DNA from: Polaribacter aestuariivivens
Lineage (GTDB): Bacteria > Bacteroidota > Bacteroidia > Flavobacteriales > Flavobacteriaceae
Assembly (NCBI RefSeq): GCF_005885675.1
Contig: NZ_VANR01000007.1
Location: forward strand, 124,001 to 188,000
Reading direction: 5' to 3'
Length of the DNA stretch: 64,000 bases
The position numbers and the translations under genes are program-made. This document shows, in pieces, positions 3,999 to 46,699 of this stretch (within the stretch, counting starts at the first letter, position 1; each line of letters begins with the position of its first letter). The notes beneath the pieces were generated by a model. The model ran no database searches. It had not been told where the DNA came from and worked only from the letters and a program-made list of their open reading frames with translations.

Positions 3999-4017
3999 GT
4001 TAATCAATTTAAAATGA

Positions 4018-4122
4018 TGTCTCCTCGAGCATTACTGAAATCAAAATTATTTTTGATTGAAAGTAACGAACGCAGTTCTCGAGAGGTTATAAATAAGTTC
4101 TGACTGCGCTCGAACAGACATT
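4018..4122. repeat. Dispersed intergenic repeat carrying GCAGT...AGGTTAT and ACTGCGCTCGA words
   Basis: The gap between bshC and rlmF is GC-richer than its surroundings. It carries CTCGAG-type words, GCAGTTCTCGAGAGGTTAT, and TGACTGCGCTCGAACAGACA. The same vocabulary recurs at 16341-16392 (TTGAGCGCAGTAGAAAGGTTAT), where GAGCGCAGT is the reverse complement of ACTGCGCTC. It looks like a decayed member of a dispersed, partly palindromic repeat family rather than coding sequence. Confidence 0.5.
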
Positions 4123-4128
4123 TAATAC

Positions 4129-4986
4129 ATGAAAGATAAAGGATTGCACCCAAAAAACAAATTTAATAAAGGTTATGATTTTAATGATTTAATCAAAGTA
4201 AATCCATCTTTAAAAGAATTTGTTTCGGAAAATAAATATGGAACAACAACTATTGATTTTTCCAACCCAAAAGCTGTAAAAGAACTCAATAAAGGGTTAC
4301 TTTTTTCTTATGATAAAATTGCTGTTTGGGACTTTCCTGACGAGAATTTATGTCCGCCAATTCCTGGACGATTAGATTATATTCATCATTTGGCAGATGT
4401 ACTTGCTGAAGAAAAAAATATAAAAATATTAGATATTGGTACAGGAGCAACCTGTATTTATCCGCTTTTAGGAGTTGCAGCATACAATTGGAATTTTGTG
4501 GCTACAGATATCGATTTAGATTCTTTGGACACTGCACAAGATATTATAGGCGATAATAAATTGGAGCAAAATATTACTTTAAGGCAGCAATTTGATGAAA
4601 ACCATATTTTAAAAGGAATTATCGAAGAAGGAGATTCATTTACAGCCACCATGTGCAATCCGCCTTTTTACAAATCTGCAGAAGAAGCACAAGGTGCCAA
4701 CAGACGTAAAAATAGAAATTTAGGAAATAGTGCTGTTCGAAATTTTTCTGGAAACAACAACGAATTATGGTATGTTGGAGGAGAAAAAGCGTTTTTACAC
4801 AATTATTTATACGAAAGTTCTTTGTATAAAACGTCAAGTAAATGGTTTACAAGTTTGGTTTCTAAAAAGGAAAATGTGGAGAGTTTAGAAAAATCATCTA
4901 AAAAACTGGGTGCAACAGAATTTAAAGTAATTCCATTAAGTCAAGGAAATAAAGTAACTAGAATTGTTTGTTGGAGGTTTCAGTAG
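4129..4986 (+). CDS. rlmF: 23S rRNA (adenine(1618)-N(6))-methyltransferase RlmF
   Basis: 285 residues. An SAM-binding Rossmann fold is marked by ILDIGTGATCIYPLLG near residue 102, and the catalytic N6-adenine motif NPPF lies in MCNPPFYKS near residue 180. The N-terminal part (HPKNKFNKGYDF, then LIKVNPSLKEFV) is typical of RlmF, which methylates A1618 of 23S rRNA. The gene is monocistronic, following a repeat-filled gap after bshC. ATG at 4129 gives the expected N-terminus. Confidence 0.93.
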   Translation: MKDKGLHPKNKFNKGYDFNDLIKVNPSLKEFVSENKYGTTTIDFSNPKAVKELNKGLLFSYDKIAVWDFPDENLCPPIPGRLDYIHHLADVLAEEKNIKILDIGTGATCIYPLLGVAAYNWNFVATDIDLDSLDTAQDIIGDNKLEQNITLRQQFDENHILKGIIEEGDSFTATMCNPPFYKSAEEAQGANRRKNRNLGNSAVRNFSGNNNELWYVGGEKAFLHNYLYESSLYKTSSKWFTSLVSKKENVESLEKSSKKLGATEFKVIPLSQGNKVTRIVCWRFQ

Positions 4987-6347: not shown

Positions 6348-7736
6348 TTATAAATGAATTACTTCATCATAAGCATCTGCAACAGCTTCCATTACAGCTT
6401 CACTCATGGTTGGGTGAGGGTGAATTGCTTTTAAAACTTCATGTCCAGTAGTTTCTAACTTACGTCCTAAAACTGCTTCTGCAATCATATCTGTTACACC
6501 AGCACCAATCATGTGGCAACCTAACCATTCACCATATTTTGCATCAAAAATAACCTTTACAAAACCATCTGGAGTTCCAGCTGCTTTTGCTTTTCCAGAT
6601 GCAGAAAATGGAAATTTACCAACTTTCAATTCGTAACCAGCTTCTTTTGCTTTTGCTTCAGTCATACCAACAGATGCAATTTCTGGAGTTGCATAGGTAC
6701 AACCAGGAACGTTTCCATAATCAATAGGTTCTGTATGCAAACCAGCCAATTTTTCAACACATGTAATACCTTCAGCAGAAGCAACGTGTGCCAAAGCTTG
6801 TCCTGGAACTACGTCTCCAATTGCATAATAACCAGGAATATTTGTTTGGTAGTAATCGTTTACCAAAATTTTATCTCTATCTACAATAATACCAACATCT
6901 TCCAAACCAATATTTTCAATATTCGATTTAATTCCAACTGCCGATAATAAAATGTCTGCTTTTAGAGTTTCTTCTCCTTTTTTTGTTTTTACAGTTGCAA
7001 CAACACCTTCACCAGAAGTATCTACAGATTCTACTGAAGAATTTGTCATTACTTTAATACCTGCTTTTTTAATAGAACGCTCAAATTGCTTTGAAATATC
7101 TACATCTTCTACAGGAACAATATTTGGCATATATTCTACAATAGTAACCTCAGTTCCCATTGCATTATAAAAATGTGCAAACTCAACACCAATCGCACCA
7201 GAACCTACAACAATCATAGATTTTGGCTGACTTGGCAACGTCATTGCTTGTCTGTAACCAATTACTTTTTTACCATCTTGTGGTAAATTTGGCAATTCAC
7301 GAGAACGTGCTCCAGTTGCAATAATAATATTATCTGCACTGTATTCTGTTACAGTTCCGTCTTCAGCAGTAACATCTACTTTTTTACCAGTTTTTATTTT
7401 TCCAAAACCGTCAATAATATCAATTTTGTTCTTTTTCATTAAAAAAGCAACACCTTTGCTCATTCCATCTGCAACACCACGACTTCTTTTTATTACAGCT
7501 TCAAAATCTTTATCAATCGCTTCTGCTTTTAAACCATATTCATCAACATGTTTTAAATAATCGTACACTTGAGCCGATTTTAGCAACGCTTTTGTTGGGA
7601 TACAACCCCAGTTTAAGCAAATTCCACCTAAAGATTCTTTTTCTACAATCGCAACTTTAAAACCTAATTGAGAGGCTCTAATTCCAGTCACATAACCTCC
7701 AGGTCCACTTCCAATAATAATGATGTCGTATTTCAT
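6348..7736 (-). CDS. lpdA: Dihydrolipoyl dehydrogenase (E3)
   Basis: 462 residues, full length. FAD-binding GSGPGGYV is at residues 9-16, the redox-active disulfide GGICLNWGCIPTK at 37-49, and the NAD-binding GSGAIGVEFA near 178. The catalytic His-Glu pair is in HPHPTMSE near 440. The enzyme reoxidises dihydrolipoamide in pyruvate and 2-oxoglutarate dehydrogenase complexes and in the glycine cleavage system. No E1/E2 genes are adjacent, so it stands alone, as often in Bacteroidota. The upstream gap holds two dispersed repeats, and no standard promoter box was seen there. Confidence 0.97.
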   Translation of the reverse strand: MKYDIIIIGSGPGGYVTGIRASQLGFKVAIVEKESLGGICLNWGCIPTKALLKSAQVYDYLKHVDEYGLKAEAIDKDFEAVIKRSRGVADGMSKGVAFLMKKNKIDIIDGFGKIKTGKKVDVTAEDGTVTEYSADNIIIATGARSRELPNLPQDGKKVIGYRQAMTLPSQPKSMIVVGSGAIGVEFAHFYNAMGTEVTIVEYMPNIVPVEDVDISKQFERSIKKAGIKVMTNSSVESVDTSGEGVVATVKTKKGEETLKADILLSAVGIKSNIENIGLEDVGIIVDRDKILVNDYYQTNIPGYYAIGDVVPGQALAHVASAEGITCVEKLAGLHTEPIDYGNVPGCTYATPEIASVGMTEAKAKEAGYELKVGKFPFSASGKAKAAGTPDGFVKVIFDAKYGEWLGCHMIGAGVTDMIAEAVLGRKLETTGHEVLKAIHPHPTMSEAVMEAVADAYDEVIHL

Positions 7737-7757
7737 TCTTTTATATTTTAATGATTT

Positions 7758-7832
7758 GGGCGTTTTAACAGGCTTTCCATTATATCTTTTTTTCGTTCCT
7801 CAAAAAAGGATGCCATTTCAATCCTTAACGCG
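7758..7832 (+). repeat. Dispersed GGGCGTT...GGCTTTCC...CAATCC.TAACGCG repeat, copy 1
   Basis: The segment reads GGGCGTT, then GGCTTTCC, TTTTTCGTTCC, AAAAAAGGATGCCA, TTTCAATCC and TAACGCG. The same order of blocks recurs at 16401-16576, where TCAAAAAAGGATGCCA plus CAATCGCTAACGCA occurs on the plus strand and GGGCGTT..GCTTTC..CAATCGCTAACGCA on the minus strand. It is non-coding and lies upstream of lpdA. Confidence 0.65.
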
Positions 7833-7857
7833 TGCTAATTTACTAACTTTTGTCCTT

Positions 7858-7881
7858 ACTGCCAACTGCGTACTGCAACTG
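7858..7881. repeat. Short tandem ACTGC(C)AACTG repeat
   Basis: Two near-identical units, ACTGCCAACTG and ACTGCAACTG, separated by CGT, lie between copy 1 of the GGGCG repeat and the argS stop. The words are the reverse complement of those at 4997-5041. Confidence 0.4.
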
Positions 7882-7892
7882 TTGACTTATTT

Positions 7893-9668
7893 TTACATTC
7901 TCTCAGGAACCTGAATTCCTAATAAAGAAAATGCTTGTTTTATAGTATCAGCTACTTTTTTAGACAACTGAACTCTAAATACTTTTTTATCTTGATTATC
8001 TTCTCCTAAAATATGCACATTTTGATAAAATGAATTAAATTCTTTTACCAAATCATAGGTATAATTTGCAATAATTGCTGGCGAATAATTGGTAGCCGCT
8101 TGCTGAACTGTTTCAGGAAACAACTCCAATTGTTTCAATAATTCTTTTTCTTTTTCGTGTAATTCAATCGAAACTTGTTTCGAATAATCAAAATCTGCTT
8201 TTCTAATGATAGACTGAATTCTTGCATAGGTATATTGTATAAAAGGTCCTGTGTTTCCTTGAAAATCTACCGAACTTTTTGGGTCAAATAAAATTCTTTT
8301 TTTCGGGTCAACTTTCAAAACAAAATATTTTAAAGCACCCAAACCTATGGTTTTGTACAATTCAGCTTTTTCTTCGTCAGAATAACCATCTAATTTTCCT
8401 AATTCTTCTGATATTTCTTTGGCTGTAGTAGTCATTTCTACCATTAAATCATCAGCATCTACCACAGTACCTTCTCTCGATTTCATTTTTCCTGAAGGTA
8501 AATCTACCATTCCGTAACTTAAATGATGCAATTGTTTTGCCCAATCAAATCCTAATTTCTTCAATATCAAAAACAATACCTGAAAATGATAATCTTGCTC
8601 ATTTCCAACAGTATATACCATACCACCTACGTCTGGAAAATCTTTTACACGTTGTATGGCTGTACCTATATCTTGCGTCATATAAACAGCTGTTCCGTCT
8701 GAACGCAATACAATTTTTTCATCTAATCCATCACCTGTTAAATCGCACCAAACTGAACCATCTTCTTTTTTATAAAAAACGCCTTTTTCTAAACCTTGTG
8801 CAACAACATCTTTTCCTAATAAGTAAGTGTCACTTTCATAATACAACGTATCAAAATTTACACCCATGTTTTTGTAAGTAACATCAAAACCGTTGTAAAC
8901 CCAATTGTTCATGGTTTTCCAAAGTGAAACTACTTTTTCATCTCCAGCTTCCCATTTTTGCAACATTTCTTGAGCTTCAATTAAAAGTGGTGCTTCTTTT
9001 TTTGCTTCTTCCTCGGTTTTTCCTGCTGCAATTAACTGAGAAATTTCCTTTTTATATTCTTGGTCAAATTTTACATAATAATTCCCAACCAATTTATCGC
9101 CTTTTAAACCGGTAGATGCTGGAGTTTCTCCGTTTCCAAATTTTTCCCAAGCCAACATCGACTTGCAAATATGAATTCCTCTATCGTTTATAATTTGCGT
9201 TTTATATACTTTTTTACCTGCTGCTTTTATTATTTCAGCAACAGAATAGCCTAATAAATTATTACGAACGTGACCTAAATGTAAAGGTTTGTTAGTGTTT
9301 GGTGAAGAATATTCAACCATTACAGCTTTTTCATCTGCCTTTGGTGAAACAATACCAAAACTTTCATCAGCATACATTGCATTGAAGAAGTTCGTGTAAA
9401 AAGCGTCATCAATTACCAAGTTTAAAAAGCCTTTTACAACATTATAATTGGTGATTTCTGGAATAGTTGAAACAACATATTTTCCTAAATCTTCTCCTAT
9501 TTGAATAGGATTTCCTTTTTTGTAACGCAACATAGGAAAAACAACAACGGTAATATCTCCTTCAAATTCTTTTCTGGTTGCTTGAAATTCCACAGTAGGA
9601 ATTTCTACATTATATAATGCTAAAAAACCTTCTTTTACTTTGGTTTCTATAGTGTTTTGAATATTCAT
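7893..9668 (-). CDS. argS: Arginyl-tRNA synthetase
   Basis: 591 residues, full-length class I synthetase. The N-terminal arginyl domain is followed by the HIGH motif as HLGH in PNTNKPLHLGHVRNN near residue 128. A KMSKS-region equivalent (SGKMKSREGT) is present, and the DALR anticodon-binding domain ends at VPERM. The enzyme charges tRNA-Arg. Transcribed alone, with an exact -7 box (TAATTTTG) just upstream of the ATG at 9668. Confidence 0.97.
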   Translation of the reverse strand: MNIQNTIETKVKEGFLALYNVEIPTVEFQATRKEFEGDITVVVFPMLRYKKGNPIQIGEDLGKYVVSTIPEITNYNVVKGFLNLVIDDAFYTNFFNAMYADESFGIVSPKADEKAVMVEYSSPNTNKPLHLGHVRNNLLGYSVAEIIKAAGKKVYKTQIINDRGIHICKSMLAWEKFGNGETPASTGLKGDKLVGNYYVKFDQEYKKEISQLIAAGKTEEEAKKEAPLLIEAQEMLQKWEAGDEKVVSLWKTMNNWVYNGFDVTYKNMGVNFDTLYYESDTYLLGKDVVAQGLEKGVFYKKEDGSVWCDLTGDGLDEKIVLRSDGTAVYMTQDIGTAIQRVKDFPDVGGMVYTVGNEQDYHFQVLFLILKKLGFDWAKQLHHLSYGMVDLPSGKMKSREGTVVDADDLMVEMTTTAKEISEELGKLDGYSDEEKAELYKTIGLGALKYFVLKVDPKKRILFDPKSSVDFQGNTGPFIQYTYARIQSIIRKADFDYSKQVSIELHEKEKELLKQLELFPETVQQAATNYSPAIIANYTYDLVKEFNSFYQNVHILGEDNQDKKVFRVQLSKKVADTIKQAFSLLGIQVPERM

Positions 9669-37935: not shown

Positions 37936-38289
37936 ATGGAAAAAAAGTCAGAAAAAAGCAAAGCTCCAGAAACAGCGCAAGAAGTAGATAGCAGAATTGC
38001 TGCAGTAAGAGACCTTATTTTTGGTGAAAATATTCAGCAATACAATACTGAATTTGCAGATGTTTACGATAAAATAAAAGCGCTACAAAACGAAACCAGA
38101 ACTAATTTATCAGAAGCAGTTTCTAATCTTGAAAACAAACTTGCAGATTTAGAAAGTTTAATGGATCATAAATTTCAAGATTTAAACGACGATTTAGATA
38201 AGAGATTGGCAGATTTAGATGATGATAAAGCAGACAGAAGAAAGTTAGGAAAAGCGCTAGAAAAAATTGCACTAATGTTGCAAGAATAG
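37936..38289 (+). CDS. Coiled-coil protein, first gene of the small-GTPase module
   Basis: 117 residues, cytoplasmic. After a 20-residue polar start come long heptad-like helices (about 35-95: VYDKIKALQNETRTNLSEA, ENKLADLESLMDHKF and DKRLADLDDDKADRRKLG), then a short helix. No enzyme motif. The stop codon abuts the ATG of the next gene. In this unit it probably forms the scaffold or membrane-proximal partner of the GTPase system. No family function is known to me. Confidence 0.75.
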   Translation: MEKKSEKSKAPETAQEVDSRIAAVRDLIFGENIQQYNTEFADVYDKIKALQNETRTNLSEAVSNLENKLADLESLMDHKFQDLNDDLDKRLADLDDDKADRRKLGKALEKIALMLQE

Positions 38290-39102
38290 ATGAAAAAGCC
38301 CACTGAAGATAACAAAAAAGACAATCGTTTTGAGTTGCTCAGAGAACTTTTATTAGAAGATGATAGAGAAAAATTTACTGCTTTAAGTGAAGAAATTATT
38401 GAAAAAGAGAAGCTCTCAAAAAGAGTACAACCTCTTGTAGATGAAAAAATTGAAGATCTTCGTCAAAAATTTCCAGAATATTTTGGAGATACCATTACAG
38501 AAACCATAAAAGTTCAAATTAGAGACTCTCAAGATGAAGTTGTTGAAGCTCTGTACCCAATTATGGGTAAATTAGTTAAAAAAGCTATTGTGAGTGAAAT
38601 AACAAAGTTATCTGACAATATAAACAGAACAATTCAAGAGAAATTTTCACTAAAACAAATACTTACACGTTTTTTTAAAGGAAAAAATAATGATGCAGGA
38701 GTTGTGCTTCAAGAAGTTTTTGAACCTATAATAGAAGAAGTTTTTGTGATTGAAAAAGATTCTGGTTTACTTGCTGGTAATTTTACAAGAGGAAACATTG
38801 CCGATAAAGATATGGTATCTGGAATGTTAACTGCCATCAAATCTTTTGCAGAAGATGCTTTTTCTAAAGAAAATCAAAACTTAGAAGATATTAAATTTGA
38901 TAGTTTTCAACTTACCATAAAAAACTTTAAAACTATTTATATTGCTATTGCAACTTCAGGAGTTTTAAATTCAGAATTTAGAGATCAATTAGCAGATAAT
39001 GTAAATAATTTGGCAGAAGTTATTTTAAGAGATCGAACGTATTTAAAAGACGAATTAAAGCTAAATGCTTTAATTGAAACCTATTTAATTACTCAAAATT
39101 AA
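38290..39102 (+). CDS. Putative GTPase-regulator protein with longin/roadblock-like C-terminal domain
   Basis: 270 residues, no signal peptide. N-terminal half helical and charged (ELLRELLLEDDREKFTALSEEI; then DEVVEALYPIMGKLVKKAI). The C-terminal half (about 150-255) reads like a roadblock/longin sensor fold: VFVIEKDSGLLAGNF, then DKDMVSGMLTAIKSFAEDAF, FQLTIKNFKTIYIAIATSG and a last helix. In MglB and longin proteins such folds regulate small GTPases. The fold call is by pattern only. It overlaps the GTPase gene by one base. Confidence 0.7.
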   Translation: MKKPTEDNKKDNRFELLRELLLEDDREKFTALSEEIIEKEKLSKRVQPLVDEKIEDLRQKFPEYFGDTITETIKVQIRDSQDEVVEALYPIMGKLVKKAIVSEITKLSDNINRTIQEKFSLKQILTRFFKGKNNDAGVVLQEVFEPIIEEVFVIEKDSGLLAGNFTRGNIADKDMVSGMLTAIKSFAEDAFSKENQNLEDIKFDSFQLTIKNFKTIYIAIATSGVLNSEFRDQLADNVNNLAEVILRDRTYLKDELKLNALIETYLITQN

Positions 39103-39587
39103 TGATTGCTAAAAAAGTTTTATTAGTAGGTAATTTTGGTGTTGGTAAAACCTCACTTATTAGAAGGTTTGTGTTAAATCAATTTTCAGAAGATTACATA
39201 AGTACCATTGGCGTTCGTGTAAGCTCTAAAGTTGTAGCTTATGAAAACCAAGAAATAAAATTATTAATTTGGGATGTTGCAGGAACTAGTGGAGATGAAA
39301 AAATACCCAAAGCCTATTTTTTAGGTGCAAGTGCAGCCATGTTTGTGTTTGATGTGAGTAGAGAAGAAACGTATTTAACAATAGACCAACATTTGGCGAG
39401 TATTAAAGCCCTTTCTGGTTTGCAAAACATTACCATTGTTGGCAATAAAAAAGACTTGCTTTCTAAAGACGAATTAGAGGCAGTTCTAGCAAAAATTACC
39501 GTAAAAATAGACTTGATTACAAGTGCAAAAGAAGACGAAAATGTAGAAGACGCATTTTTAAAATTAACCGCTCAAGCTTTAAAATAA
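39102..39587 (+). CDS. Rab-like small GTPase with Thr in place of catalytic Gln
   Basis: 161 residues, one G domain. G1 GNFGVGKTS at 10-18, G2 Thr35 in ISTIGV, G3 WDVAGT at 57-62, G4 NKKD at 115-118, G5 TSAK at 140-143. In Ras/Rab proteins Gln follows the DxxG of G3; here it is Thr62, so intrinsic hydrolysis should be slow and depend on a partner. No C-terminal lipidation Cys. Encoded between a putative longin/roadblock protein and a hybrid histidine kinase, all overlapping or a few bases apart. Confidence 0.9.
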   Translation: MIAKKVLLVGNFGVGKTSLIRRFVLNQFSEDYISTIGVRVSSKVVAYENQEIKLLIWDVAGTSGDEKIPKAYFLGASAAMFVFDVSREETYLTIDQHLASIKALSGLQNITIVGNKKDLLSKDELEAVLAKITVKIDLITSAKEDENVEDAFLKLTAQALK

Positions 39588-39592
39588 ACCTC

Positions 39593-41116
39593 TTGATACC
39601 TGCAAAAATAGAAGATGTTTTTATACAAGTTACTACAGATTTTTCTGGAGTAATAACAAACATTGTAGCAGGTAAATTTGCAGAAAAAGCATTCCAAATT
39701 CACAGTTCTATTTTCAAAACATGCCCTTTTTTAGAAGGTACACTCGAAGCTTTGGAACACCAACAACAGTTTACATTAGAGACTATGGTTATTGACTTTA
39801 ATTCTGTTGAATATAATGTAGATATTGAACTTTTTAAAGAGGAACAAAATATTAGTGTTTTAATTCATAACAGAACCAATGTTTACAAAATTGTAGAGCA
39901 GCTAAACCAAAACAGAAACGATATTTTTTTTATAAAGAGAGAGCTTGCAGAAAAAAACGAAGAACTTAAAAAACTACGTAAAATTGCAGACAAAGCGAAT
40001 GAAGAAAAATCACGTTTTTTAGCAATGATGAGTCATGAAATTAGAAATCCGTTAAATGTTATTTTAGGATATTCTGAAATGATTTCTCAAGAAAAAATTA
40101 ATGATAACGTAGCACAATACGCAAAATTATTAGCAATTTCAGGAAATAATTTAAAAGTAATTGTAAACGATATTTTAGATTTATCTAGAATTGAAGCTGG
40201 TAAATTAGAGTTGATACATACAGTAATAAATATCAACGAAATTGTTACAAACTGTGTTGAAAACTATAGATTACAAAATAAAAATTCAGCAGTAGAATTA
40301 CTCTTAAATATTGAAAATAAAATCCCTGAAAATATTTTAGGTGATCAAGTACGAATCAATCAAATTTTATCAAATTTACTTTCAAACGCAGTAAAATTTA
40401 CTCAAAAAGGCAAAATTTCAGTAGATGTTAAAATGGAATATGATAATAGTGATTCTACAAAAATAGTATTTCTAGTATCTGATTCTGGTAGAGGAATGAC
40501 TAGTTTACAGGCTTCTAAAATTTTTGACGAATATCAACAAAATAAAAAAAGTGATAATAGAGTTTTTGGAGGTGCAGGTTTGGGTTTGTCAATCGTAAAA
40601 AGACTATTGAAAGAAATGAAAGGAAGCATTTCTGTAAAAAGTACCTTAAATGAAGGAAGTGTTTTTAAAGTTGAAATTCCTTTTTTAAAAGGAAACAGCT
40701 CAAAAATAATTGAATCTGAAATAGAGGAAAATTCAAGTATTAAAAGTATTGTAAATAAAAGAATTTTAGTAGCTGATGATGATGCTTTAAATCAAACCAT
40801 TGTAGCTCACATACTCGCAAAAGAAAATGTAATTTTAACCCAAGTTAAAGATGGGTTAGAAGCTTTAAATATTTTAAAAACAACTACTTTCGATTTGGTG
40901 TTATTAGATATTCACATGCCAAACATTACTGGCGAACAACTAATGCAACAAAAAAATGAATTTCATCAATCTAACAGAGTAACTCCTTTTTTAGCGTTAA
41001 CAGCAAACACAACTAAAGAAGATTTAGAAAGATATTACCATATTGGTTTTGTAGATGTTATTTCTAAGCCTTACACTGCTGTTGAGTTTGTCGAAAAAAT
41101 GAAGAAGAATATATAG
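39593..41116 (+). CDS. Hybrid sensor histidine kinase with receiver domain, last gene of the GTPase module
   Basis: 507 residues from a TTG start (39593) 5 nt after the GTPase stop. Domains: PAS-like fold (about 1-105), coiled coil (about 110-140), HisKA with H148 in MSHEIRNPLN, HATPase (about 255-370; GVFGGAGLGLSIVKRL-type G box), and a receiver (about 390-505) with phospho-acceptor D439 in LLDIHMP and the switch Lys in SKPYT. No membrane helix, so it senses a cytoplasmic cue, plausibly the state of the neighbouring GTPase. No output domain. Confidence 0.9.
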   Translation: MIPAKIEDVFIQVTTDFSGVITNIVAGKFAEKAFQIHSSIFKTCPFLEGTLEALEHQQQFTLETMVIDFNSVEYNVDIELFKEEQNISVLIHNRTNVYKIVEQLNQNRNDIFFIKRELAEKNEELKKLRKIADKANEEKSRFLAMMSHEIRNPLNVILGYSEMISQEKINDNVAQYAKLLAISGNNLKVIVNDILDLSRIEAGKLELIHTVININEIVTNCVENYRLQNKNSAVELLLNIENKIPENILGDQVRINQILSNLLSNAVKFTQKGKISVDVKMEYDNSDSTKIVFLVSDSGRGMTSLQASKIFDEYQQNKKSDNRVFGGAGLGLSIVKRLLKEMKGSISVKSTLNEGSVFKVEIPFLKGNSSKIIESEIEENSSIKSIVNKRILVADDDALNQTIVAHILAKENVILTQVKDGLEALNILKTTTFDLVLLDIHMPNITGEQLMQQKNEFHQSNRVTPFLALTANTTKEDLERYYHIGFVDVISKPYTAVEFVEKMKKNI

Positions 41117-41209: not shown

Positions 41210-41270
41210 AATAGCGGTTCAAGTTGATACTCAAACCGCTATTGCTTATATAGGTTGTTAGGCACTGGCT
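41210..41270 (+). repeat. Left-end cassette element L1: hairpin plus GTTAGGCACTGGCT
   Basis: A 34-nt hairpin (AATAGCGGTTCAAGT / ACTCAAACCGCTATT, 41210-41243, with a 2x2 internal loop) is followed by GCTTA and GTTAGGCACTGGCT (41257-41270). The last base abuts the stop codon of the SRPBCC gene. A related element is at 45314-45372, and an inverted copy of GTTAGGCAC lies at 43810-43818. It may also act as the terminator for the convergent genes. Confidence 0.6.
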
Positions 41271-41753
41271 TTATTTCACCAATTTAATTATGTTTTCTAC
41301 CATTTCTACTCGAGCACTCGTTATAAATCCATCAAATTGCTCTTTGGTCATATTCGGATTCTCGACAAATTCATAGTTTGATGTCCAAACAATCATCGAT
41401 TTGTTAAACCCTAAATCAACTACTTTAATCATATTGTTCATGTTTTTAGCTGGCACGCCTTCTATTACTTGATACGAATACGTTCGGGTTTTATCATCAA
41501 ATCCTGTTATCTTTTCCTTGAAATAACCATTTCCGTCTGCAGAAGTACAAACTCTTTCGCCACCAATACCTTTTGGACCTTTCCATTGTACTTTTGATAC
41601 AAAAGATGATAGCTCATCAATATTGTCCATTTTTCGAATTTGCTCCCAAACTTTATCTGCTGAACTTTCAATTTCTGTTACTAATGGCGTTTGAGCTTGC
41701 AACATCGTAGTTGCAGAAATTAATAAGATAAATAAAATTGTTACTTTTTTCAT
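41271..41753 (-). CDS. Secreted SRPBCC-fold (polyketide cyclase-like) protein
   Basis: 160 residues with a signal peptide ending near LQAQ. The mature part has the START/SRPBCC pattern: early helix (SADKVWEQIRKMDNIDELSSFV), beta strands with GERVCT and YSYQVIEG, and a C-terminal helix (FITSARVEMVENIIKLVK). The fold binds hydrophobic ligands; the ligand is unknown. Last gene of the cluster with a second SRPBCC protein, a SnoaL-like protein and an ECF sigma factor. Confidence 0.82.
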   Translation of the reverse strand: MKKVTILFILLISATTMLQAQTPLVTEIESSADKVWEQIRKMDNIDELSSFVSKVQWKGPKGIGGERVCTSADGNGYFKEKITGFDDKTRTYSYQVIEGVPAKNMNNMIKVVDLGFNKSMIVWTSNYEFVENPNMTKEQFDGFITSARVEMVENIIKLVK

Positions 41754-41823: not shown

Positions 41824-42180
41824 TTAGTAAAAGAATTGTTCAAGAATAATTTTTCCATTTTCTACTTGATAGAGAATAATTTCATCTAATTCTGCCTTAT
41901 TTCCATCTTTTAAAGTAAATGACGCTTTGTAGGGTAAAGCAATAAAATCTTTACTGGTAATGGCTTCTCCAACTTCCATAGAATGAAATTCAGCAATGTT
42001 GCCTCTCATAATTTCATCTTTTTCTTTTATGGCTTTTACACCTTTAATATCAGAAAAGTAAGGCGATTGTGGTTCAATGTGTTTTACCTTCTCTTGGTCA
42101 AACAAAGTATCATAAACTTCATCAAACTTTCCTTCTTTTAAAAGAGAGGTCAACTTTTCAGCGATTTGTTTTGTTGTCAT
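41824..42180 (-). CDS. SnoaL-like (NTF2-fold) protein
   Basis: 118 residues: TTKQIAEKLTSLLKEGKFDEVYDTLF, then a middle with KEKDEIMRGNIAEFHSMEV and strands FTLKDGNKAELDEIILYQ ending in ILEQFFY, the cone-like alpha+beta layout of SnoaL/NTF2 proteins. SnoaL-like domains are fused to ECF41 sigma factors; here such a protein is encoded separately beside an ECF gene and has the same promoter motif upstream (42210-42234). Ligand unknown. Confidence 0.8.
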   Translation of the reverse strand: MTTKQIAEKLTSLLKEGKFDEVYDTLFDQEKVKHIEPQSPYFSDIKGVKAIKEKDEIMRGNIAEFHSMEVGEAITSKDFIALPYKASFTLKDGNKAELDEIILYQVENGKIILEQFFY

Positions 42181-42209
42181 GTTTTATATTTTATGTTGTT
42201 TATTATTTG

Positions 42210-42234
42210 GATACCAAACTTGTTGATGTGTTAC
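42210..42234 (-). promoter_or_regulatory. Predicted ECF promoter P3: GTAACAC-N13-GTATC
   Basis: Minus strand reads TTTTGTAACAC, 13 bases, GTATCCAAATA; identical blocks and spacing to 42774-42798 and 43761-43785. It is 30 nt before the SnoaL-like gene. Confidence 0.75.
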
Positions 42235-42239
42235 AAAAC

Positions 42240-42743
42240 TCATGCAACTTTGTTAGAGAATTTTTCAATTTCTTTCAATTTATTTGTACTTGGTTTTCCA
42301 GTTTCTACATAGTTTTTCAAGTCATTTGGAATATGCTCAATTTGTTTTTTTAGTTGCATTTTCATCATAGGATTCATAATACTACCTACCAAACCTTTAG
42401 TCTTTACTATAAGATGCATATCTACTTTAGTTCTCTCAGAGCTTATTGAGGTTAGTTGCCAATTATTGATTGCAGAATCAACAAAAAAGGGAAAGCCTTC
42501 AATGACTTCGTATTCGAGGATATGATTATTTGCATCAAATTTTCTGATAACTTCTTTAATTTTTCCAGATGGTAGTTCGCAAGATCTATTATTTGAAGGT
42601 GCTCCTTTAATCACTGGTGGACTATATGCTTTAGAATGATTTAAACCTGATGCCCATTTGTATACATCACCAAATTGATTTCCCAATATGTCCCAAACAG
42701 CTTTTATTGGCTTGTTAATAGTAATTTCTTTTTTAAATTCCAT
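42240..42743 (-). CDS. Cytoplasmic SRPBCC-fold protein
   Basis: 167 residues without signal peptide. SRPBCC pattern: INKPIKAVWDILGNQFGDVYKWASGL, then GAPSNNRSCELPSGK, ILEYEVIEGFPFFV and a C-terminal amphipathic helix (MKMQLKKQIEHIPNDLKNYV). Binds an unknown hydrophobic ligand. Preceded by the same promoter motif as the sigma gene and separated from that gene by a terminator. Confidence 0.82.
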   Translation of the reverse strand: MEFKKEITINKPIKAVWDILGNQFGDVYKWASGLNHSKAYSPPVIKGAPSNNRSCELPSGKIKEVIRKFDANNHILEYEVIEGFPFFVDSAINNWQLTSISSERTKVDMHLIVKTKGLVGSIMNPMMKMQLKKQIEHIPNDLKNYVETGKPSTNKLKEIEKFSNKVA

Positions 42744-42773
42744 GTTAATAAATTTTATGTTATTTATTATTTT

Positions 42774-42798
42774 GATACATGAATTTATAATGTGTTAC
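42774..42798 (-). promoter_or_regulatory. Predicted ECF promoter P2: GTAACAC-N13-GTATC
   Basis: Minus strand TTTTGTAACAC, 13 bases, GTATCAAAATA, 31 nt before the SRPBCC ATG. It starts directly after the terminator of the sigma gene. Confidence 0.75.
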
Positions 42799-42807
42799 AA
42801 AACCAAA

Positions 42808-42838
42808 AAAAGGTTACCTCCGTTAGAAGTAACCTTTT
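42808..42838 (-). terminator. Intrinsic terminator after the ECF sigma gene
   Basis: On the minus strand AAAAGGTTAC-N11-GTAACCTTTT followed by TTT. It separates the sigma gene from the SRPBCC/SnoaL genes, which therefore need their own promoters. Confidence 0.82.
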
Positions 42839-42866
42839 CATTTTCAAACTGAAATCTCAACTTAAT

Positions 42867-43739
42867 TTATATTTTGAAATAGTTTGAAAGTTTATCATTG
42901 TTTATAAGCTCTTTAATGATAGTATCTTTTTCAAAATCATCTTTTACTGGATGCTCTTGAAATAATTTAGTGTAAGTTGTCGTAAAATCGTCTAAAGCTT
43001 CTTCGTGGTTATTTTCTACAAAATCTTTTACTTTCATTTTGGTTTTGATGTTGAATAGCATTTTTTCTTCATCTAAAACACCCATTTCTTTCAAGGCTTT
43101 TGCTTTTTTAGGGCATCTACAAGGATTTTCTTTGTTTACCAAACCACACTTATTATTCATATAATTAAACAAATCTTTGCGCGCTCTGTGAAGCTTTATT
43201 CTAAAATTTTGAGTACTTACACCAAAAATATCAGCTCCAAGTGTGTGGTCAATACCAAAACTTGTGCCTAAAATAAATATTAGACGTTGTTCTCTGTTTA
43301 AGCACATAATCATTCCGCTCATACACTGAATTTGCATTTCCTTAGATAACTCTTGGTAACTAATTTCTTCTTCAATACTTAATTCTGGGTTTGGAACTTG
43401 GTCTAAACGTTCTTCATAGTCATCAAAATCTGAAAATTGTTTTTCGCTTTTTCTTCTTTTGGATTGTAAAAATTCGTTAACCACGATACGATACAACCAT
43501 GTTCTAAATTTACTTTTGAAGTTGAACTGCCCTAATTTGGTAATAACTTTGATGAGTACTTCTTGAGTTAAGTCTTGAGCATCTATAGGGTTGTGACACA
43601 TTTTCCAAGCTACATTATAGATAAATGGCTGATGATAACTTATAATTTCATTTAAAGATTCTTTGTTGCCATCTATAGCTTGTTTAACAAGGTTTTGTTG
43701 TTCTGTATCTGAATATGATTTACTAAAAGGAAACTGCAT
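42867..43739 (-). CDS. ECF-type sigma factor with Cys-containing C-terminal extension
   Basis: 290 residues, about 100 longer than a minimal ECF factor. Region 2 (AQDLTQEVLIKVITKL; TWLYRIVVNEFLQSKRRK) and region 4 (LNREQRLIFILGTSFGIDHTLGADIFGVS) are clear. The extension from about 200 carries KCGLVNKENPCRCPKK, three Cys that could bind metal or sense redox state, then a helical acidic tail. No anti-sigma gene is present, so the extension probably controls activity. Preceded by its own copy of GTAACAC-N13-GTATC, suggesting autoregulation. Confidence 0.9.
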   Translation of the reverse strand: MQFPFSKSYSDTEQQNLVKQAIDGNKESLNEIISYHQPFIYNVAWKMCHNPIDAQDLTQEVLIKVITKLGQFNFKSKFRTWLYRIVVNEFLQSKRRKSEKQFSDFDDYEERLDQVPNPELSIEEEISYQELSKEMQIQCMSGMIMCLNREQRLIFILGTSFGIDHTLGADIFGVSTQNFRIKLHRARKDLFNYMNNKCGLVNKENPCRCPKKAKALKEMGVLDEEKMLFNIKTKMKVKDFVENNHEEALDDFTTTYTKLFQEHPVKDDFEKDTIIKELINNDKLSNYFKI

Positions 43740-43760
43740 AATTAAAAGGTTTTATGTTTA

Positions 43761-43785
43761 GATACAGAATAGTCGAAGGTGTTAC
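43761..43785 (-). promoter_or_regulatory. Predicted ECF promoter P1: GTAACAC-N13-GTATC
   Basis: Minus strand TTTTGTAACAC, 13 bases, GTATCTAAACA, about 22 nt before the sigma-factor ATG. It matches P2 and P3 in both blocks and spacing. Confidence 0.75.
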
Positions 43786-43804
43786 AAAAGTTGCTTTTTT
43801 TTTC

Positions 43805-45847: not shown

Positions 45848-46699
45848 TTACTTGACTAAAAAGTTCAATCTGTATTTGGAAGGGGAAATTCCATATTGTT
45901 TTTTAAAAGCACGACTTAAATGTTCTGGAGATTCAAAACCACATTCGTAACCAATACTGTTTATTGGACTGTCTGTTGTTTTAAGTAAACTAGCTACCTT
46001 TGTTAGTTTTATTTCAAGTCTATATTTAGCAGGAGTTGTGTTGTATAATTCTTTAAATTTTCTTTTAAAAGTGGAAACAGAACTATTCGTGACTAATGCA
46101 AGGTTTTCAATTGAGGCTGTATGTTCAATATTTGCTTCTACTAATTCTTTAAATGAGAATTCTCGTTCGGAGAATAAACTTTTAATAATATTTCTAACAT
46201 AATCTGAATTATCAGTTTGAAGTAGAAAAAGTATTATTTCTTTTAGCTTAATTTTAAGTATAGATTCTGTAATGGCTTCCTTATTTTCAAAAAACTTAAT
46301 AATTGTATCAAAATAATATTTTACCATTTCAGAAGCAGCAGACTGAATGACAAATTGAGTTACTGGTTTTTCCAATTCCTCCCATAGTTCTGGTTTTTCT
46401 CCTTCAAAAACTTTATTCAAAACAGTTCTATTAAAATGAACGACTATTGAATAGATATTACCATTGGGTTGATTTGAAAGCATACCTCCTAAAGTTAGTC
46501 CGCACAAAGAAAGGATGGCGTGATTAGTTTTAGCAATAATGTTTTCAGATTCAGAAAATATTTGTTCATCTCCTTCAATGATATAAGCTATGCAAGCATC
46601 TGAAGGTAAATTTAAATTCTCCTCTGATGGAGTTTCCAAATTCACAATAGTGAACAATGGATAATCAAATAGTAATATATTGTCTTTTCTCTTAATCAT
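45848..46699 (-). CDS. AraC-family transcriptional regulator
   Basis: 283 residues. C-terminal two-helix-turn-helix domain (about 185-280) with SSVSTFKRKFKELYNTTPAKY and GYECGFESPEHLSRAFKKQYGISPSKY. The N-terminal part looks like a degenerate cupin-type sensor. It probably controls the adjacent membrane protein gene 75 nt downstream (inference). Located inside the second accessory segment. Confidence 0.92.
   Translation of the reverse strand: MIKRKDNILLFDYPLFTIVNLETPSEENLNLPSDACIAYIIEGDEQIFSESENIIAKTNHAILSLCGLTLGGMLSNQPNGNIYSIVVHFNRTVLNKVFEGEKPELWEELEKPVTQFVIQSAASEMVKYYFDTIIKFFENKEAITESILKIKLKEIILFLLQTDNSDYVRNIIKSLFSEREFSFKELVEANIEHTASIENLALVTNSSVSTFKRKFKELYNTTPAKYRLEIKLTKVASLLKTTDSPINSIGYECGFESPEHLSRAFKKQYGISPSKYRLNFLVK

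Follow-up and report, generated by a model that had tools for sequence, protein, structure and literature searches.

What reads a two-block repeat that stands in exact copy before an ECF sigma factor gene and two of its neighbours? In the window, by which we mean the whole 64-kb stretch of DNA analysed here, GTAACAC-N13-GTATC has exactly three matches, all on the minus strand, with cores at 42210-42234, 42774-42798 and 43761-43785; none arose in 100 shuffles, which rules out chance as their origin. The preliminary description had placed these copies upstream of genes starting at 43739, 42743 and 42180, judged them to lie beyond chance and found no fourth in the window. Each of these points was confirmed, and the form common to all three copies is longer still, TTTTGTAACAC-N13-GTATC-N-AA. 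Sequence comparison makes it very probable that the ECF sigma factor encoded at 42867-43739 uses the repeats as its promoters, and this factor would raise its own level and serve a small local regulon.

Three repeats and the genes behind them

The features of the gene group, in the order in which the minus strand is read, are as follows.

43758-43789, minus strand: predicted promoter 1, TTTTGTAACAC-N13-GTATC-TAA, with GTATC 21 nt from the ATG of the sigma gene.
42867-43739, minus strand: ECF-type sigma factor of 290 aa with a C-terminal extension containing KCGLVNKENPCRC (profile matches and fold).
43176-43208, minus strand: codons of the sigma4 recognition helix, around residues 178-187 (NFRIKLHRAR), residue 181 being Ile (codon arithmetic from 43739).
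42807-42839, minus strand: intrinsic-terminator-like hairpin and T run, 3' of the sigma gene (folding z-score -3.96).
42771-42802, minus strand: predicted promoter 2, TTTTGTAACAC-N13-GTATC-AAA, with GTATC 30 nt from the ATG of the SRPBCC gene.
42240-42743, minus strand: SRPBCC (Polyketide_cyc2) protein of 167 aa (PF10604, E 5.5e-8).
42207-42238, minus strand: predicted promoter 3, TTTTGTAACAC-N13-GTATC-CAA, with GTATC 29 nt from the ATG of the SnoaL gene.
41824-42180, minus strand: SnoaL_5 protein of 118 aa (PF20409, E 5.5e-25).
41271-41753, minus strand: second SRPBCC protein, of 160 aa, with an apparent signal peptide (PF10604, E 6.5e-13).
41210-41243, minus strand: terminator-like hairpin closing the gene group (terminator scan).

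The sigma protein scored 84.4 bits against TIGR02937 (cut-off 42.9). Pfam placed Sigma70_r2 above its cut-off (E 1.7e-17) and Sigma70_r4_2 below it (E 1.9e-4), and the best Foldseek match of the protein model was SigW (5wur_A). By TIGR02937, Sigma70_r2 and the SigW-like fold, the protein has the sigma2 and sigma4 regions alone that characterize ECF group IV. The AAC of ECF -35 elements is present in the site before its own gene (as GTAAC), with a -10 of GTATC instead of CGT.

Within the window, the single blocks recur on both strands (GTAACAC 8 times, GTATC 80 times), and the rarity therefore belongs to their combination. The preliminary description had proposed a scan of the genome, with hundreds of unrelated copies as the outcome that would speak against it. 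Across the 3,173,263 bases of the whole genome we found four exact copies, namely the three in the window and one on another contig (C7) that lies antisense within a 548-aa open frame; a common genome-wide element is thereby excluded. The general form TGTMAC-N15-KTRTC-NAA gave six matches in this genome versus two for the reversed pattern, and among the additional matches only one precedes a gene. We found no relevant paper when searching the literature for this motif.

That one additional site, at 1501-1529 of locus L029 (G000 contig C8:343453-343481), is a weaker match, TGTAACAC-N13-GTGTC-TAA, some 100 nt ahead of a LemA-like gene. Its -10 form, GTGTC, is one used in relatives. The site may belong to the regulon or have arisen by chance, and a wider regulon is possible.

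The preliminary description had also noted a terminator after the sigma gene and argued that it makes separate promoters necessary. A terminator-like hairpin is present there (42839-42807), but it isolates the sigma gene only. No terminator-like site was found between the SRPBCC and SnoaL genes, and the predicted promoter of the SnoaL gene is therefore not strictly needed. The second SRPBCC gene, downstream of SnoaL, has no motif of its own, and no terminator-like site was found between the two; this gene is probably a fourth member of the regulon, read through from promoter 3.

Two other parts of the window caught our attention. On the plus strand, 37936-39587 carries a Ras-family small GTPase of 161 aa (PF00071, E 2e-33) directly after two unannotated frames (117 and 270 aa). 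Close behind the GTPase lies the gene of a hybrid histidine kinase that includes a receiver domain (39593-41116). At 45848-46699, on the minus strand, an AraC-type regulator with an ExsA_N-like N-terminal domain adjoins a DUF6326 gene, upstream of a DEAD-box helicase.

Conservation of the motif and its target genes

Homologues of the sigma factor occur in 10 of 149 genomes of the family and 4 of 58 of the genus, and, under a stricter limit, in 11 of 395 genomes of the phylum. This patchy distribution (4/58 in the genus, 10/149 in the family) suggests frequent loss or horizontal transfer. From 361 relatives found in genome contigs, 80 loci were named; most are from Bacteroidota, with single members from Rhodothermota, Calditrichota, Chloroflexota, Myxococcota and a Moraxellaceae bin. 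Near-identical sigma copies (92-94%) were seen in loci labelled as different genera, and the homologues at L131 and L135 each have one in-frame stop in the matched stretch (TGA and TAA, respectively). A similarity search of phage DNA gave weak sigma matches in 12 records, the best at 69 bits among the matches listed and none spanning 80% of the query.

We counted the motif in 92 loci, omitting L024 (a fragment at a contig end), in the strict form TGT[A/C]AC-N15/16-[GTA][ATG][ATG]TC-[TCA]AA, where a site before a gene lies within 160 nt upstream of the start codon. Before genes there were 88 strict sites versus 1 for the reversed control, distributed over 63 of the 92 loci; anywhere in the loci the counts were 96 and 5. 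The strict sites precede the sigma gene itself or its neighbours at a median distance of 30 nt from the ATG, and, once near-copies are dropped, 71 of 74 sites have a spacing of 15. Sites of the promoter 1 type are kept upstream of homologous sigma genes (for example at L034-L038, L054 and L056), and the promoter 2 site recurs upstream of the orthologous SRPBCC gene at L036, L037, L038, L041, L051, L052 and L054. A loose pattern showed no enrichment when counted over the whole loci (232 versus 239 reversed), and was enriched at gene starts (104 versus 13 reversed). These counts support the view, already put forward in the preliminary description, that the repeats have the form of ECF promoters. 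The rule has exceptions: 35 of 103 sigma loci have no strict site within the stretch scanned, some of these stretches being short. Many loci have a site upstream of a neighbour gene and none before the sigma gene, and autoregulation is therefore not universal.

The repeats might also be housekeeping or cryptic elements, recent duplications of one upstream region that carry no regulatory meaning. The tails of all three copies in the window are A/T rich, and the leaders of promoters 2 and 3 are alike, as such duplication would leave them. The three 13-nt spacers, however, are all unlike one another, and in relatives the blocks and their spacing are kept down to about 30% sigma identity, which makes a meaningless duplication extremely unlikely.

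Many of the genes directly behind strict sites belong to one family. Pfam assigned Polyketide_cyc2 (SRPBCC) to 45 of 72 such targets, together with 9 short-chain dehydrogenases (SDR), 4 SnoaL_2, 2 SnoaL_5, 3 DUF4440 and 3 alpha/beta hydrolases, categories that may overlap. Among the remaining genes of these loci, 100 were sampled from 464 eligible, and 14 of the 100 matched Polyketide_cyc2 (Fisher p 5e-11), a contrast that is a low estimate because the control genes include operon partners. A carboxymuconolactone decarboxylase was noted by eye as a target at L050; Pfam listed that family for none of the 72. Targets of these kinds suggest that the regulon binds or converts small molecules that are hydrophobic or reactive.

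Conservation of a promoter-like motif leaves room for another reader. The repeats could be sites for some ordinary transcription factor or for a different ECF sigma factor, the adjacent sigma gene being merely one target, and the genome does hold other ECF-like genes (23 first-look candidates). Against this stand the two-block form, which is not palindromic, the fixed 15-nt spacing and the fixed distance to the ATG. The distribution of the motif among genomes of the family bears on the same question: TGTMACAC-N13-GWATC-NAA is present in more than one copy in just 2 of 149, and both carry the sigma factor. Simple presence of this pattern (2 of 10 sigma-carrying versus 3 of 139 sigma-free family genomes) is a weak test because other carriers use other -10 forms. 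Among 11 chosen genomes, a related pattern matched once each in the sigma carriers G189 and G152, and in none of five same-genus genomes without the sigma factor and none of four other carriers.

Covariation of sigma residue 181 with the third -35 base

Across the loci, the -35 core has A or C as its third base. Sites before different genes of one locus carried the same variant in 29 of 31 pairs, whereas shuffling gave a mean of 15.2 and did not reach 29 in any of 10,000 rounds. In a collapsed set that omits L034-L038, L086 and L088, agreement was 21 of 23 pairs, a value reached by 2 of 10,000 shuffles. Both discordant pairs come from L061, a locus with two paralogous sigma genes (4000-4876 and 7207-8086), where two C sites flank the first sigma gene (Lys 181) and an A site follows the second (Leu 181). 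The rule set out below thus holds for each of the two paralogues.

The sigma alignment comprised 74 of 77 sigma frames, give or take near-copies; L035, L037, L038 and L102 were omitted from it and the window sigma was added. Mutual information with the A/C label is complete at residue 181, which lies in the recognition helix of sigma4 (N178-F179-R180-[181]), for the 47 loci whose label is unambiguous (19 A, 28 C): Ile or Val accompanies A in 19 of 19, and Lys, Gln or Thr accompanies C in 28 of 28. When any base was allowed at this position and the set was enlarged (107 loci; L128 and L133 omitted as repeats of L018 and L026; 4 of the 107 without the tail motif), 95 sites gave A 46 times and T once with Ile, Val or Leu, the T standing at one I-type site, and C 48 times with Lys, Gln or Thr. 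All 27 sites outside the training set obeyed the rule; they come from 21 loci, and four of these loci (L016, L035, L037, L038) duplicate or nearly duplicate training loci. On the sigma tree the label has three or more changes. The covariation is strong but not conclusive, because related sequences are not independent, the independent changes are few, and columns 177 and 128 come close in information (0.93 and 0.91 of 0.97 bits).

Contacts reported for equivalent residues agree by analogy with a role of residue 181 in reading this base. T171 of SigW and S172 of SigE contact the neighbour of the variable base, at -34, as described in PMC6713349, and Corynebacterium glutamicum sigma-D, which reads GTAAC, is described in PMC11588781 as contacting the thymine methyls opposite -33/-32 through its equivalent residue, V171. 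With the C variant, the C:G pair would offer a guanine to Lys or Gln. The ECF41 consensus given in PMC3426412, TGTCACA, predicts the C form for ECF41, and three ECF41 homologues above the TIGR02957 cut-off match it, with NCRQ or NCRK at the place of residue 181 and TGTCAC upstream.

These results weigh against a different regulator: the variable base of the motif tracks residue 181 of the adjacent sigma factor, and at L061 each of two sigma factors has its own variant beside it. We consider it improbable that the repeats serve another factor. The proposal in the preliminary description that the adjacent sigma factor uses these promoters gains support from the same comparison, both from the covariation with residue 181 and from the coherence within loci.

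For the adjacent sigma factor as reader, we propose the following sequence of events. RNA polymerase with this sigma factor would bind all three promoters through the -35 element TGTAACA (G-35 T-34 A-33 A-32 C-31) and, 15 nt from GTAAC, the -10 element GTATC followed by NAA. In sigma4, residue 181 would help to read the third -35 base (A with Ile, Val or Leu; C with Lys, Gln or Thr). Because all three promoters would be bound, the sigma factor would raise its own level by positive autoregulation and switch on a local set comprising an SRPBCC gene and a SnoaL gene, to which read-through would add the gene of a putatively secreted SRPBCC protein.

The cysteine tail and related ECF groups

How such a sigma factor might be held in check is suggested by its C-terminus. 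About 95 residues follow sigma4, and no anti-sigma family was found among the neighbour genes scanned with Pfam. Cysteines 139, 146, 198, 207 and 209 are all present in 74 of 74 aligned homologues, a count partly selected since the locus search patterns covered C146 and C198 and the filter demanded CGL....NPCRC. The 12 homologues found without cysteine patterns all have the five cysteines, and the three loci that failed the tail filter (L051, L098, L108), inspected by hand, keep the cysteines seen there. Two of the five stand before sigma4 as C-x6-C, and the other three follow it as C-x8-C-x-C. In the AlphaFold model (mean pLDDT 82), C139 and C146 lie on or just after the helix that opens sigma4 (129-145), C198 ends the recognition helix, and C207 and C209 stand just ahead of the next helix.

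The extension and the five kept cysteines make a metal- or redox-sensing tail plausible. With no anti-sigma gene alongside, the activity of the sigma factor would probably be held or released by its own extension, and cysteines 198, 207 and 209 of the tail could form a metal or redox site together with 139 and 146. Our favoured guess is that this site clamps the tail on sigma4. We give a little less than an even chance to a different arrangement, in which an anti-sigma factor is encoded elsewhere or control lies in the synthesis of the sigma factor alone, the cysteine tail being a structural zinc site and no sensor. Invariant cysteines suit a structural site equally well; on the other side, an anti-sigma family is missing among the scanned neighbours, and other ECF groups with C-terminal extensions are described as sensing through them (PMC8999054). 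The same source describes metal or redox sensing of this kind for CorE and proposes it for ECF287 and ECF288.

Three known systems come closest to the window sigma. The first, ECF41 (Ecf41Bli, Ecf41Rsp, SigJ), is reported in PMC3426412 to have a -35 of TGTCACA, a spacer of 16 +/- 1, a -10 of CGTC and a SnoaL_2 tail. As that account describes it, ECF41 shares with the window sigma a promoter before the sigma gene and/or one neighbour, a very small local regulon, the lack of an anti-sigma gene and a C-terminal extension (regulatory in ECF41). Relatives of the window sigma with Lys or Gln at residue 181 also share with ECF41 that residue and TGTCACA. Unlike ECF41, the window sigma has no SnoaL_2 tail: Pfam shows only sigma regions and HTH_16, and a cysteine tail takes its place. 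Its promoters have TGTAACA (A for C) and GTATC rather than CGTC. The neighbours differ too, being a carboxymuconolactone decarboxylase, an oxidoreductase or an epimerase in ECF41 and SRPBCC and SnoaL proteins here; the targets are mainly SRPBCC proteins rather than the carboxymuconolactone decarboxylases of ECF41. The window sigma would work like ECF41 and, by the test of the tail, is not ECF41.

The second comparison, made by description (PMC8999054), is with CorE-like sigma factors (former ECF44, now ECF238) and with ECF287 and ECF288, which like the window sigma have a cysteine C-terminal extension and no anti-sigma factor. The CxC that CorE has in its sigma2-sigma4 linker is absent from the window sigma, and we rejected a CorE-like assignment in spite of the cysteine tail. 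Third, C. glutamicum sigma-D resembles the window sigma in its -35 of GTAAC and in the helix residues Arg-Val at the places of R180-I181; as portrayed in PMC11588781, it differs in its N18-20 spacing, its -10 of GAT, its family and its regulon.

We tentatively suggest, with somewhat less than even confidence, that the window sigma represents an undescribed ECF group with a patchy spread over Bacteroidota and some further phyla. In such a group, residue 181 alone would set one -35 base, a one-residue, one-base code that would separate paralogues in one genome, and the five cysteines, spanning sigma4 and the tail, would make the sigma factor a one-component sensor of metal or redox state controlling SRPBCC, SnoaL and SDR genes that handle small lipophilic or reactive molecules. 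The interest of the locus rests on the residue-base rule and the cysteine tail rather than on the promoter itself. ECF sigma factors are a main route by which bacteria couple a signal to a set of genes, and the promoters of Bacteroidota are poorly charted. In this case the probable regulon is compact and its members are recognizable from the DNA alone; the residue-base rule lends itself to a test by a single substitution, and orthogonal sets of sigma factor and promoter occur as natural pairs.
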